Assembly: GCA_030529135.1 (NCBI GenBank) | Contig: JAUMXO010000006.1 | Coordinates: 1 to 49,883, forward strand | Origin: Candidatus Saccharimonadota bacterium | GTDB lineage: Bacteria > Patescibacteriota > Saccharimonadia > Saccharimonadales > Saccharimonadaceae | Direction: 5' to 3' | Length of the DNA stretch: 49,883 nt | Shown: positions 16,439-49,867 of the stretch, in pieces | Layout of the letters: the number at the start of each line of letters is the position of its first letter | Numbering within the stretch: the stretch's first letter is position 1 | Translations under genes and position numbers: made by a program | Notes under the pieces: generated by a model | Seen by the model: the letters and a program-made list of their open reading frames with translations, nothing else | Told to the model about the DNA's origin: nothing | Database searches by the model: none

Positions 16439-16970
16439 CTTCCTCACCTCCTTCTTCTTCAACCTCCCAATACTCGTCCTCAGAATCATCTGAAGTAGTA
16501 TCGGTATCAACATTTCCTTCCGGCAGACTTTCTAGCTCCAAATTGAACCATATTGCATCGGCTGCGAAAAAGCCGACACCAACAACAAAAAGCATTAATG
16601 GAGCTCCGTTAAGAACCCCAATTAAGCCTCTCGGCAAATTGGTGTCAATCACTCTTGCCGCCGCTGATTTACCGATAAGCATCAAGATAAACATGATACC
16701 AGAGTGTATTAAAAGCTCTGGTACGTTGCTTCCTTCCTGATGCCACCAATAAATCAAATAACCCATCAGTGCCAACACGATCACATAAAAGAATGGTACC
16801 GCAATGAAGATTGGTACCTTTGGTGCCAAGAAATTGATTACACCGGAAAGAAGACCATATATGATGACCTTTACCAGTATAACCTCCTTCTCTTCGCCAA
16901 ATCGCTTAGAATTGGCGAATACTAAACCTGCCACTACCAATGCTACAATAAGACTAAGGAATGCCAGCAT
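16419..16970 (-). CDS. Multi-pass membrane protein with acidic C-terminal tail
   Basis: The 183-residue protein has four to five hydrophobic segments (for example LAFLSLIVALVVAGLVFA and FIAVPFFYVIVLALMGYLIYW) and ends in a strongly acidic tail (EDEYWEVEEEGGEEDVTAEE). AAAGGAGGTG lies just upstream of the ATG at 16970, which decides it over the upstream in-frame start at 17015. The acidic codons at the end contain the GGAGG ribosome binding site of the next gene. Its function is unknown. The operon is driven by a consensus promoter at 17142-17170 with a leader of about 165 nt. Confidence 0.65.
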   Translation of the reverse strand: MLAFLSLIVALVVAGLVFANSKRFGEEKEVILVKVIIYGLLSGVINFLAPKVPIFIAVPFFYVIVLALMGYLIYWWHQEGSNVPELLIHSGIMFILMLIGKSAAARVIDTNLPRGLIGVLNGAPLMLFVVGVGFFAADAIWFNLELESLPEGNVDTDTTSDDSEDEYWEVEEEGGEEDVTAEE

Positions 16971-17910: not shown

Positions 17911-17953
17911 TAATTATATAATATTTATCCTAGATTCGCTTCCTCTAAACAGA

Positions 17954-17977
17954 TGAAAAACGCCTCTCAAAGAGGCT
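17954..17977 (-). terminator. Terminator of the tRNA-His/tRNA-Gly unit
   Basis: GCCTCT and AGAGGC (17962-17976) form a hairpin followed on the minus strand by GTTTTT. It lies beyond the copied tRNA-Gly 3' end, so that copy is inside the transcript. Confidence 0.8.
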
Positions 17978-17989
17978 GTTTATCAACAC

Positions 17990-18011
17990 TGGTGCGGGTG
18001 AGGGTAATCGA
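17990..18011 (-). repeat. Copy of the tRNA-Gly(UCC) 3' end
   Basis: These 22 bp are identical to 18057-18078, the last 22 nt of tRNA-Gly(UCC) including CCA, shifted by 67 bp. GGGTAATCG in the copy can pair with CGATTCCC at 18021-18028 in the spacer. No other part of a tRNA is recognisable. Confidence 0.9.
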
Positions 18012-18056
18012 TTGGAACAACGATTCCCTTTTTCTGAGATTTTTGTGCAACAAAAA

Positions 18057-18131
18057 TGGTGCGGGTGAGGGTAATCGAAACCCTTTCTCGAGTTTGGAAA
18101 ACTCGCATACTAACCGTTGTACTACACCCGC
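18057..18131 (-). tRNA. tRNA-Gly (anticodon UCC), CCA encoded
   Basis: The cloverleaf is complete: acceptor GCGGGTG/CACCCGC, D-loop with GG, anticodon stem CGAGT/ACTCG with loop TTTCCAA, T-arm AGGGT-TTCGATT-ACCCT, discriminator A73 and genomic CCA. A73 differs from the U73 usual in bacterial tRNA-Gly. It is transcribed after tRNA-His in one unit. Confidence 0.95.
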
Positions 18132-18141
18132 ATAATATTAA

Positions 18142-18171
18142 ACTGTGGGGTGGGATATCGGGATCGAACCG
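18142..18171 (-). repeat. Copy of the tRNA-His 3' end
   Basis: These 30 bp are identical to 18211-18240: the T-arm 3' part, acceptor 3' strand and CCA of tRNA-His plus three following bases, shifted by 69 bp. The spacer carries GATACCCAC (18199-18207), complementary to GTGGGATATC in the copy except for one bulged base, so the copy can rebuild an acceptor-like stem. Confidence 0.9.
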
Positions 18172-18214
18172 TTTATGAAATACGGCTCATCGTTTTTTGA
18201 TACCCACTTCACTG

Positions 18215-18292
18215 TGGGGTGGGATATCGGGATCGAACCGACGACCTTCTGGACCACAATCAGACGCTCTAACCATCTGAGCTAATCCCACC
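18215..18292 (-). tRNA. tRNA-His (anticodon GUG), CCA encoded
   Basis: Acceptor GTGGGAT/ATCCCAC is extended by G-1 opposite C73, the histidine identity pair. The anticodon loop is TTGTGGT. The anticodon stem TCTGA/CCAGA has an A-C mismatch at its loop-closing pair. The T-arm is GTCGG-TTCGATC-CCGAT. TATAAT at 18302-18307 (minus) lies just upstream and overlaps the end of the neighbouring gene. Confidence 0.95.
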
Positions 18293-23679: not shown

Positions 23680-25023
23680 TTAGAGTTCAGAAACAGGCAC
23701 TCTTATCTGCTTAGTAGTGTCTCTATCGCGAATAGTTACCGAATTATCCTCTAGTGTATCAAAATCGATTACCACACACTTCGGTGTACCGATTTCGTCC
23801 TGTTTACGATATCTCTTACCAATATTTCCCGAATCATCCCAAGTCACATTTTTGTATTTCTCACGAAGTATTTGATACACTTCCTTAGCTTTTTCTACTA
23901 ATTCTGGTTTATTTTTAAGTAGCGGCGACACACAAAATCTATACGGCGCCAAATTTTCTGGTAATTTTAGTACGACACGTTTCTCCCCATTCACTTCGTC
24001 TTCGGTATAAGCATTTGAGAGTACTGCTAGGAATAATCTCTCTACGCCAATCGATGGCTCAATTACGTGCGGCACAAAAGTTTCTCCCGTTACCTTATCA
24101 CGATATTCCATCGATTTTCCAGATTCACGAGCAATATTAGACAAATCAAAATCTGTTCTATAGGCTAACCCCATCAATTCTTCAAGTCCATTCGGGTAGT
24201 CAAACATAAAATCAATTGTACGCTTAGAATAATGCGCTCTATCTTCTGCTGGCACTTCATATTCATGAATAAAATCTGCGCGAAGACCAATCATATTCTC
24301 TAGAAAATCATGCTGCAAGTTTCTTAATACTTCAAAATTTTCTTCCCAAGTATCTGGTTTTACAAAATATTCAATCTCCATCTGCGAACATTCACGATCC
24401 CTCAAGATAAAATCTCTAGGTGAAATTTCATTTCTAAAAGCCTTACCTTGCTGCGCCAACCCAAATGGCAAAGAAGGATAAAAAGTATCTAGCACATTTT
24501 TGTAATTTACAAAAATTCCCTGCGCTGTTTCCGGACGAAGATATGCTACATTTTTCTCCATCAATTCCGCATCATCATCTGGCAAAACCGCCCCTATATG
24601 CGTAGAAAACATCATGTTGAATTTTCGGATCGGACCCCAGTTTTCTTTACCACATACCGGACATTTTACATGTAAGTTCAAAAACTCTTCCGAAGTCACC
24701 GATTCACTTATACCGTCTGCAATTTTGTCTGCACGGAATCGTGATTTACATTCTTTACATTCCACTAAGGGATCTGCGAATGTCGAAGTATGCCCAGATG
24801 CCACCCAGGTACGAGGATTCATTAAAATTGCCGCATCAATTCCATACATATCGTCTCTAGACTCCACAAAAAATGACCACCATGAATCCATTAACTTCTT
24901 TTTCAAAATCACACCGAGGGGACCAAAATCCCAAGTCCCAGCCATACCGCCATATATTTCCGAACCAGGAAAAATAAAACCTCGTCTTTTGCACAAACTT
25001 ACAATATCTTCTAAATTACTCAT
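23680..25023 (-). CDS. glyS: Glycyl-tRNA synthetase, alpha2 (eukaryote/archaea-like) type
   Basis: The enzyme charges tRNA-Gly. The 447-residue class II synthetase has motif 1 near FGPLGVILKKKL, zinc-type cysteine pairs CKECK and CPVCGK, motif 2 RNEISPRDFILRDREC and motif 3 EPSIGVERLFLAVL, with an anticodon-binding domain at the end. It belongs to the homodimeric class, not the bacterial alpha2beta2 class. This agrees with both tRNA-Gly genes here having A73. The ATG is 6 nt after TATAAT. Confidence 0.95.
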   Translation of the reverse strand: MSNLEDIVSLCKRRGFIFPGSEIYGGMAGTWDFGPLGVILKKKLMDSWWSFFVESRDDMYGIDAAILMNPRTWVASGHTSTFADPLVECKECKSRFRADKIADGISESVTSEEFLNLHVKCPVCGKENWGPIRKFNMMFSTHIGAVLPDDDAELMEKNVAYLRPETAQGIFVNYKNVLDTFYPSLPFGLAQQGKAFRNEISPRDFILRDRECSQMEIEYFVKPDTWEENFEVLRNLQHDFLENMIGLRADFIHEYEVPAEDRAHYSKRTIDFMFDYPNGLEELMGLAYRTDFDLSNIARESGKSMEYRDKVTGETFVPHVIEPSIGVERLFLAVLSNAYTEDEVNGEKRVVLKLPENLAPYRFCVSPLLKNKPELVEKAKEVYQILREKYKNVTWDDSGNIGKRYRKQDEIGTPKCVVIDFDTLEDNSVTIRDRDTTKQIRVPVSEL

Positions 25024-45775: not shown

Positions 45776-45852
45776 GCGAATGTAGCTCAGTTGTTTAGAG
45801 CGCTTCCTTGCCAAGGAAGAGGTCGAGAGTTAGAGTCTCTTCATTCGCACCA
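45776..45852 (+). tRNA. tRNA-Gly (anticodon GCC) with altered 19-56 pair, CCA encoded
   Basis: Acceptor GCGAATG/CATTCGC, anticodon stem CTTCC/GGAAG with loop TTGCCAA, T-stem GAGAG/CTCTT and A73-CCA. The D-loop reads AGTTGTTTA (G19 to U) and the T-loop TTAGAGT (C56 to A), so the near-universal G19-C56 tertiary pair is replaced by U19-A56. The co-change suggests a functional tRNA. Confidence 0.93.
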
Positions 45853-45903
45853 TTTTTATGCTCCAGATTTCTTTCTCCAGTTAAAACTCTCGGGCTACGC
45901 CAA

Positions 45904-45937
45904 CGAGAGTTAGAGTCTCTTCATTCGCACCATTTTT
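45904..45937 (+). repeat. Copy of the tRNA-Gly(GCC) 3' end
   Basis: These 34 bp are identical to 45824-45857: the whole T-arm with its unusual TTAGAGT loop, the acceptor 3' strand, CCA and five T, shifted by 80 bp. AACTCTCG (45885-45892) in the spacer pairs perfectly with CGAGAGTT at the start of the copy around an 11-nt loop. Confidence 0.92.
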
Positions 45938-49710: not shown

Positions 49711-49733
49711 AATGGTAGCCGGAACGGGACTTG
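49711..49733 (-). repeat. Copy of the tRNA-Leu 3' end
   Basis: These 23 bp are identical to 49781-49803: the T-loop end, T-stem 3' strand, acceptor 3' strand and CCA plus two bases, shifted by 70 bp. GGGACT in the copy pairs with AGTCCC at 49749-49754 in the spacer. Confidence 0.92.
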
Positions 49734-49782
49734 CCCGCGAAGCACCACAGTCCCTAATTTTTGAGTTTTTGTGAAACAAAAA

Positions 49783-49867
49783 TGGTAGCCGGAACGGGAC
49801 TTGAACCCGTACGGATTGCTCCATTCGATTTTAAGTCGAACGCGTATACCAATTCCGCCATCCGGCC
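49783..49867 (-). tRNA. tRNA-Leu (anticodon UAA), CCA encoded
   Basis: This class II tRNA has acceptor GGCCGGA/TCCGGCT with a G1-U72 wobble pair, anticodon stem TTCGA/TCGAA with loop CTTAAAA, a long variable arm (GGA-GCAA-TCC), T-arm ACGGG-TTCAAGT-CCCGT and A73-CCA. It decodes UUA/UUG. Confidence 0.95.

Follow-up and report, generated by a model that had tools for sequence, protein, structure and literature searches.

We identified a class of very short DNA units in one genus of Candidatus Saccharibacteria which are inserted exactly behind the CCA end of tRNA genes and which close with a duplicate of the tRNA 3′ end. The units form a hairpin in which the right arm is the tRNA-derived copy, and the left arm shifts with the tRNA while staying complementary to it. 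The stretch of DNA analyzed here (the window; 49,883 nucleotides) is one contig of a 787-kb genome (G000) and contains six tRNA genes. Tentatively, we read the units as minute elements that insert site-specifically at the 3′ ends of tRNA genes, using attachment sites in the T-loop and a folded or inverted-repeat recognition site.

Copies of tRNA 3′ Ends in the Window

The tRNA genes of the window were detected with ARAGORN and matched the Rfam tRNA family. The tRNA-His(GTG) gene (18215..18291, reverse strand) is the upstream partner of the first unit. Its spacer (18172..18214, reverse strand) contains, according to sequence and predicted fold, two arms which pair with the copy, GTGGGTATC (18199-18207) and CGATGAGCCG (18183-18192). 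The copy itself (18142..18171, reverse strand), defined by sequence comparison like the other copies of the window, lies at an offset of 69 and is 30 bp long, consisting of 26 nt that end at CCA (18146-18171) and the four shared trailing bases CAGT. On the same strand, tRNA-Gly(TCC), corresponding to Gly(UCC) (18057..18131), is followed by a spacer of family F1 (18012..18056) with a TTTTTGTTGCACAAAAA hairpin, an A-run, the arm GGGAATCG (18021-18028) and the loop TTGTTCCAA, and then, at an offset of 67, by an exact 22-nt copy from position 55 to CCA (17990..18011). Past both copies lies a single intrinsic-terminator-like hairpin, AGCCTCTTTGAGAGGCGTTTTT (about 17949..17979, reverse strand; assigned by eye). 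The family names F1, F2, F3, F3-long, and F4 were coined in this analysis.

The same design is repeated at two further tRNA genes of the window. The tRNA-Gly(GCC) gene (45776..45852, forward strand) is followed by an F4 spacer (45853..45903, forward strand) with the arm AACTCTCG (45885-45892) and the loop GGC-TAC-GCC-AA, and by an exact 29-nt copy (45904..45932, forward strand). The tRNA-Leu(TAA) gene, corresponding to Leu(UAA) (49783..49867, reverse strand), is followed by a spacer (49734..49782, reverse strand) with the F1-like trailer TTTTTGTTTCACAAAAA and the arm GGGACTGTG (49746-49754), and by an exact 21-nt copy (49713..49733, reverse strand). All four copies end exactly at CCA, and the remaining two tRNA genes of the window, tRNA-Glu and tRNA-Cys, have no downstream self-copy. 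Both the copies with their offsets and the terminator beyond them had been described in an earlier note made from the sequence of the window, as had the two further loci (four of six tRNAs), the complementary segment in each spacer and the resulting fold, and all of this was reproduced. Exact self-copies of 21-29 nt within 250 bp of their own tRNA are beyond chance. Some units in other loci are placed past a terminator, unlike the layout in the window.

Occurrence in the Genome and Among Relatives

About 709 kb of the 787-kb genome was read, including every stretch with a tRNA detected by ARAGORN. A copy of its own 3′ end follows within about 170 bp downstream for 18 of the 44 detected tRNAs; in thirteen cases the match is exact for 18 nt or more up to CCA, and the other copies are shorter or decayed. 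Outside tRNA genes, nearly all sequences in these 709 kb that match a tRNA 3′ end sit just 3′ of their own tRNA. The statement in the earlier note that each copy matches its own tRNA and no other holds with an exception at tRNA-Gln(UUG), which bears a Gln(CUG) end. At this locus (G000:C19 17278-17500; L010 1079-1300), tRNA-Gln(TTG) is followed by a unit with the Gln(CTG) 3′ end, the one clear non-cognate copy, and then by a unit with its own end. The scan of further tRNA genes and relatives that the earlier note had proposed found copies at many tRNAs in the same genus. The result named in that note as pointing to chance remnants, a lack of copies at other tRNA loci and in relatives, was therefore not obtained, and the occurrence of copies after their own tRNA is confirmed and far more widespread than first noted.

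Two other loci of this genome show related arrangements. At G000:C20 about 24338-24493 (L013 about 16639-16794), tRNA-Pro(TGG) has a truncated copy of itself upstream, separated from the full gene by a short spacer; this copy stops in the T-loop (GGTTCAAG) and is a mirror image of the 3′ copies. The trailer of tRNA-Asp (C19 39902-39978; L011) is an F1-like hairpin with T-loop sequence, in which a T-run replaces the acceptor copy. This trailer is a unit converted into, or derived from, a bidirectional terminator.

Of 174 genomes of the genus, 36 contained the pattern TTCTTCGAATCGANTC, and none contained a reversed-control pattern. A 20-base form of the motif occurred at 20 loci among 84,980 species genomes, all titled Candidatus Saccharibacteria and mostly from ruminant gut; the exact core motif is confined to Saccharibacteria among the genomes searched. 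Almost all inspected motif sites lie beside a tRNA with a matching copy, or close an array or island that ends in the copy of the tRNA, and a few are situated at the end of a contig or at a distance from all tRNAs found (e.g., G302). Exact motif matches, which could represent a free form, were absent from the viral contigs of IMG/VR, and a phage origin was therefore rejected.

Relatives of the same genus carry fewer units, usually at other tRNAs: about six tRNAs bear units in G001, one in the part of G002 read and seven in the part of G003 read, G000 and G001 being the genomes read beyond a part, and all counts coming from draft assemblies, which may collapse repeats or break them where a contig ends. 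A set of 294 tRNA loci used in the comparison is enriched for units and gives no estimate of prevalence. A copy follows tRNA-Tyr in 11 of 16 same-genus genes by our own reading, with none detected after the other five. Sampled tRNA-Tyr genes from other genera had no short unit and in some cases degraded long-family units, to which the antisense partial tRNA-Tyr of these genera belongs.

Unit Families and Arm-Copy Covariation

A unit extends from CCA to CCA, with a variable left part and a right part that is conserved within a family. The left part consists of a small hairpin with an A-run, or of an intrinsic terminator that is sometimes homologous to the native one; in many left parts the A-run abuts the hairpin and reads, by eye, as a terminator for the opposite strand. 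In F1, the commonest family, an arm of 7-9 nt that can pair with tRNA positions 56-63 in the T-loop and T-stem is followed by TTC-TTC-GAA, a T and the copy, which starts at position 55/56 and runs for 22 nt to CCA. F2 resembles F1 but has the loop R-AYC...GRT-G and a 21-nt copy from position 56. The F3 copy is 18 nt long and starts at position 59, the loop is AAAT or similar, and the arm reaches the acceptor as well; F3-long units measure about 110-160 nt. In F4, the arm pairs with the 5′ strand of the T-stem, in which the copy of 26-30 nt also starts, so that the start of the copy varies with the family. Units range from 34 to 160 bp, and the small ones (34-60 bp plus copy) vary little in size and are conserved at the right end. 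Several units, for example of the F3 family, sit beyond an intrinsic terminator.

Arrays contain up to five units of identical or mixed families, with identical tandem units in Ala, Leu, and Gln arrays, and decayed copies are seen in old units. At tRNA-Gln(TTG) of G304 (L200), the copies of five tandem units are alike (CTGAAGGCCTAGCCA or one change from it) and unlike the current tRNA sequence (CTGCCAGCCTAGCCA), as though this sequence had changed after the array was formed.

Arm and copy form 278 Watson-Crick pairs out of 328 over 41 distinct F1 sites. When the arms were swapped between sites, 236 ± 5 pairs were obtained and 278 was never reached in 20,000 trials. A second count over 30 sites gave a covariation score of 0.173 compared to 0.076 after shuffling (reached in 0 of 500), and sliding the sequences showed that the register is specific; as the sites are related to one another, none of these figures is a strict probability. 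The covariation includes G.U pairs. The F3-long units adopt a four-way-junction fold, in which the closing stem links the arm to the tRNA copy, with compensatory changes at 27 of 42 pairs in eight sequences. The covariation fits folding, and it does not by itself demonstrate recombination of a folded single strand.

Insertion and Turnover at tRNA Genes

At tRNA-Lys(CUU), the CCA directly abuts ACAGGGGAACCTGTGG in seven genomes of the genus; this sequence is the left end of a serine-recombinase island, and a variant of it is present in the window's genome. In G258, a 78-bp unit (56 bp plus a 22-nt tRNA copy) lies exactly between CCA and ACAGGGGAACCTGTGG. The displaced copy has two C-to-T changes, and the terminator within the unit differs from the native one. 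In G003, tRNA-His is directly followed by tRNA-Gly, and in G000 and G001 it is followed by differing units. Ser(UGA) carries F1, F2, and F3 in three genomes, one family in each. The arrays, mixed families and decayed copies represent turnover. At some loci the homology does not stop at CCA but reaches into the native trailer (mean of 2.3 nt vs. 0.70 ± 0.14 nt for swapped pairs, a signal to which tandem units and shared T-runs contribute part), which suggests that a unit carries DNA of the same tRNA locus and not a fixed left end.

In the insertion reading, which we favor, a crossover in the T-loop or T-stem would rebuild the tRNA on one side and displace the old 3′ end to the other, with the hairpin (or inverted repeat) as attachment site. 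The recombinase would be supplied in trans, might be of the tyrosine type, and would recognize the folded or inverted-repeat site rather than a fixed sequence, which would explain the covariation of the arms. As the tRNA would keep working only with a cognate 3′ end, the units that survive would be those with cognate copies, and arrays would form by repeated insertion and unequal exchange. Insertion, duplication and covariation are seen directly in the sequences; the crossover point, the folding of the DNA and the recombinase are inferred. Of the three explanations offered in the earlier note, integration of small elements at tRNA ends has the best support: the precise insertion at Lys(CUU), the turnover, the mixed arrays and the decayed copies speak for integration, but "scar" is too simple a term because arm and copy covary and the long family keeps its four-way-junction fold. 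Several observations weigh against insertion, among them that no candidate enzyme fits (see below). At 34-60 bp plus copy, the units appear to be below the size needed for an ordinary double-stranded circle. Backbones shared between different tRNAs require target switching, which a T-loop crossover would not accomplish without making a chimeric tRNA. The non-cognate copy at Gln(UUG) and the lack of exact free-form matches in IMG/VR are also against it. It is possible, although we find it doubtful, that Saccharibacteria possess a tRNA-anchored integron-like system, in which folded hairpin sites, built in part from the tRNA 3′ ends of the host and re-adapted by pairing, would bring mini-cassettes of about 60-160 bp, and perhaps genes, to many tRNA loci.

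A somewhat unlikely alternative to insertion is an enzyme-free tandem duplication of the tRNA 3′ end together with its trailer, by template switching or unequal recombination. Natural DNA uptake would help, the hairpins would make the spot prone to such events, and no dedicated recombinase would be needed. Homology that in many cases extends beyond CCA and covers part of the native trailer or terminator (Asn L139, Lys L001, Met L014, and Glu L240), and the identical tandem units of the Ala, Leu, and Gln arrays, would agree with duplication. The invariant TTCTTCGAA motif across tRNAs and species would be unexpected from slippage, as would the family-specific copy starts, the arm covariation and the conserved four-way junction, and the terminator of the Lys(CUU) unit is not the native one.

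The covariation, with its G.U pairs, and the long-family fold with its compensatory changes and CCA end would also agree with an RNA element within the pre-tRNA, and the opposite-strand terminators read by eye in many left parts point in the same direction. Here, a hairpin ending in CCA would steer 3′ processing, termination or antisense transcription, or would give a CCA-ended small RNA, and the long family would be a tRNA-like cloverleaf. We regard this as unlikely. Several F3 units lie beyond an intrinsic terminator, which weakens the control of processing or termination put forward in the earlier note but leaves it a rival. Occupancy is patchy, as illustrated by the one match in the part of G002 read and the five same-genus Tyr genes out of 16 without a detected copy. 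Moreover, the copies decay in old units, and the units match no known RNA family in Rfam, where only tRNA scored above threshold.

Relation to Known Systems

tRNA genes are classical landing sites of mobile DNA, and the elements known from them encode an integrase of their own and span kilobases. Within tRNA genes, tyrosine integrases use the T-loop as a sublocation. Copies that run from the T-loop to the 3′ end are found in F1 (from position 55), F2 (56), and F3 (59), whereas the family with copies of 26-30 nt starts in the 5′ strand of the T-stem instead. Elements which integrate in the 3′ part of a tRNA gene rebuild the tRNA at one border and leave it partly duplicated at the other (PMC3293823); the attachment site of virus SSV1 in tRNA-Arg is 44 bp long (discussed in PMC3293823). 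The units described here resemble such elements in targeting the tRNA 3′ part and in having an intact tRNA on one side and an exact partial 3′ copy on the other. They differ in their size of 34-160 bp without an integrase gene, in the many tRNAs occupied per genome, in their tandem or mixed arrays, and in a hairpin arm adapted to each tRNA.

Integron attC arrays consist of tandem units with a folded imperfect hairpin, extra-helical bases and RYYYAAC/GTTRRRY boxes. Tandem units, a folded right-end hairpin with extra-helical bases and, as proposed here, recognition of structure are shared with them. However, the units have no adjacent integrase gene, are mostly free of genes, and take one hairpin arm from the tRNA; by inspection they lack the RYYYAAC ... 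GTTRRRY boxes, and their arms vary with the tRNA (e.g., GGATTCG/CGAATCC). REP elements and IS200-IS605 ends are very short non-autonomous hairpins moved by Y1 transposases, with a guide that pairs with the cut site. The units are likewise very short non-autonomous hairpin elements, for which pairing of guide and cut site is a parallel, but they copy a tRNA end and occur only at tRNAs, and a Y1 transposase was found in none of 21 genomes. No published description of such units was found in the literature on tRNA-linked integrons, serine recombinases or tRNA-end repeats in Saccharibacteria and CPR. The novel features are how small the units are, how many tRNAs of one genome bear them, their arrangement in arrays, and a site in which the free arm is matched to each tRNA.

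In length, the units are comparable to a tRNA gene, and they occupy up to about 40% of the tRNAs in a reduced genome. Should they be mobile, they would rank with the smallest known site-specific elements and would suggest that targets are chosen through base pairing; if they function as RNA, they would represent a new tRNA-trailer element. Saccharibacteria are tiny bacteria of parasitic type which can be grown in co-culture, so that both readings are testable.

Candidate Enzymes and Islands at tRNA Genes

No integrase gene is present within the units, at 34-160 bp. The window's genome encodes one XerD-like and one accessory tyrosine recombinase, both outside units, and neither passed the cut-off of the integron integrase model TIGR02249. 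The accessory enzyme (300 aa; G000:C22 44694-45593, L060) is encoded about 1.5 kb upstream of tRNA-Tyr and adjoins a Fic-like gene. Its occurrence in relatives is patchy, with several fragments at contig ends; it is unlinked to the motif and missing from motif-rich genomes, and was rejected as the enzyme. The genome also has a large serine recombinase at tRNA-Trp. Serine recombinases were found in 89 of the 174 genus genomes and, by our own count, in 20 of the 36 motif-positive ones; the large serine recombinases belong to a separate type of tRNA-end element, have no association with the motif, and were likewise rejected. A Y1 transposase (PF01797) was absent from all 21 genomes searched, including the window's, and was discarded as machinery. 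Reverse transcriptase (PF00078) was detected in 9 of the 21 genomes but not in the window's genome despite its 18 copies, and was discarded as well. None of these enzymes, serine recombinase, accessory tyrosine recombinase, reverse transcriptase or Y1 transposase, fits.

Large islands occur throughout the genus at the 3′ ends of Lys, Leu, Arg, Asn, Gln, Asp, Ser, and Trp tRNAs (e.g., L244 7433-14946, L228 8800-15853, L295, L285, and L106/L277-L283). Most have a large serine recombinase beside the tRNA, and the one at Leu (L228) has no recognized recombinase. Their cargo includes DUF1828/DUF1829, DUF6978, and a 979-aa protein with treble-clef zinc-finger repeats (DUF4379).

The units could be imagined as degraded attachment-site remnants of ordinary tRNA-integrating islands that were shortened by deletion. 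tRNA ends are classical targets of islands (PMC3293823), and many large-serine-recombinase genes of the genus lie beside tRNA 3′ ends, including the one at tRNA-Trp in the window's genome. The islands target the same tRNA 3′ ends as the units, but they are several kb long, have a recombinase by the tRNA and a core of few nt at the acceptor end where this is readable, and are independent of the mini-units. At the readable borders (Arg L244, Leu L228, and L295), the repeat of the island itself is about 6-9 nt by eye, and a separate mini-unit lies beyond it. Together with the narrow sizes and conserved right end of the small units, and with serine recombinases showing no association with the motif, this makes an origin from islands quite unlikely. 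Very improbable is a target-duplicating integrase of the Cas1 or casposase kind, leaving 18-22-bp target-site duplications that end at CCA: copies that are nearly always cognate and of fixed length per family would suit it, and arrays with the newest unit next to the tRNA are plausible, but the left boundary depends on the hairpin family (18 to 30 nt) and the right one is always at CCA, and the homology past CCA does not fit.

Gene cassettes had been considered for the long stretches at Arg(UCG), Leu(GAG), and Tyr, an interpretation that was rejected. These stretches proved to be a serine-recombinase island, an island with genes but no recognized recombinase, or arrays with other inserts, and a separate mini-unit comes after them. 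At tRNA-Tyr of G003 (L086 4826-7180), an ORF of 566 aa with a weak match to DUF6843 sits in a 2.2-kb interval that has tRNA-Tyr units on one side and a further 22-nt Tyr copy on the other.
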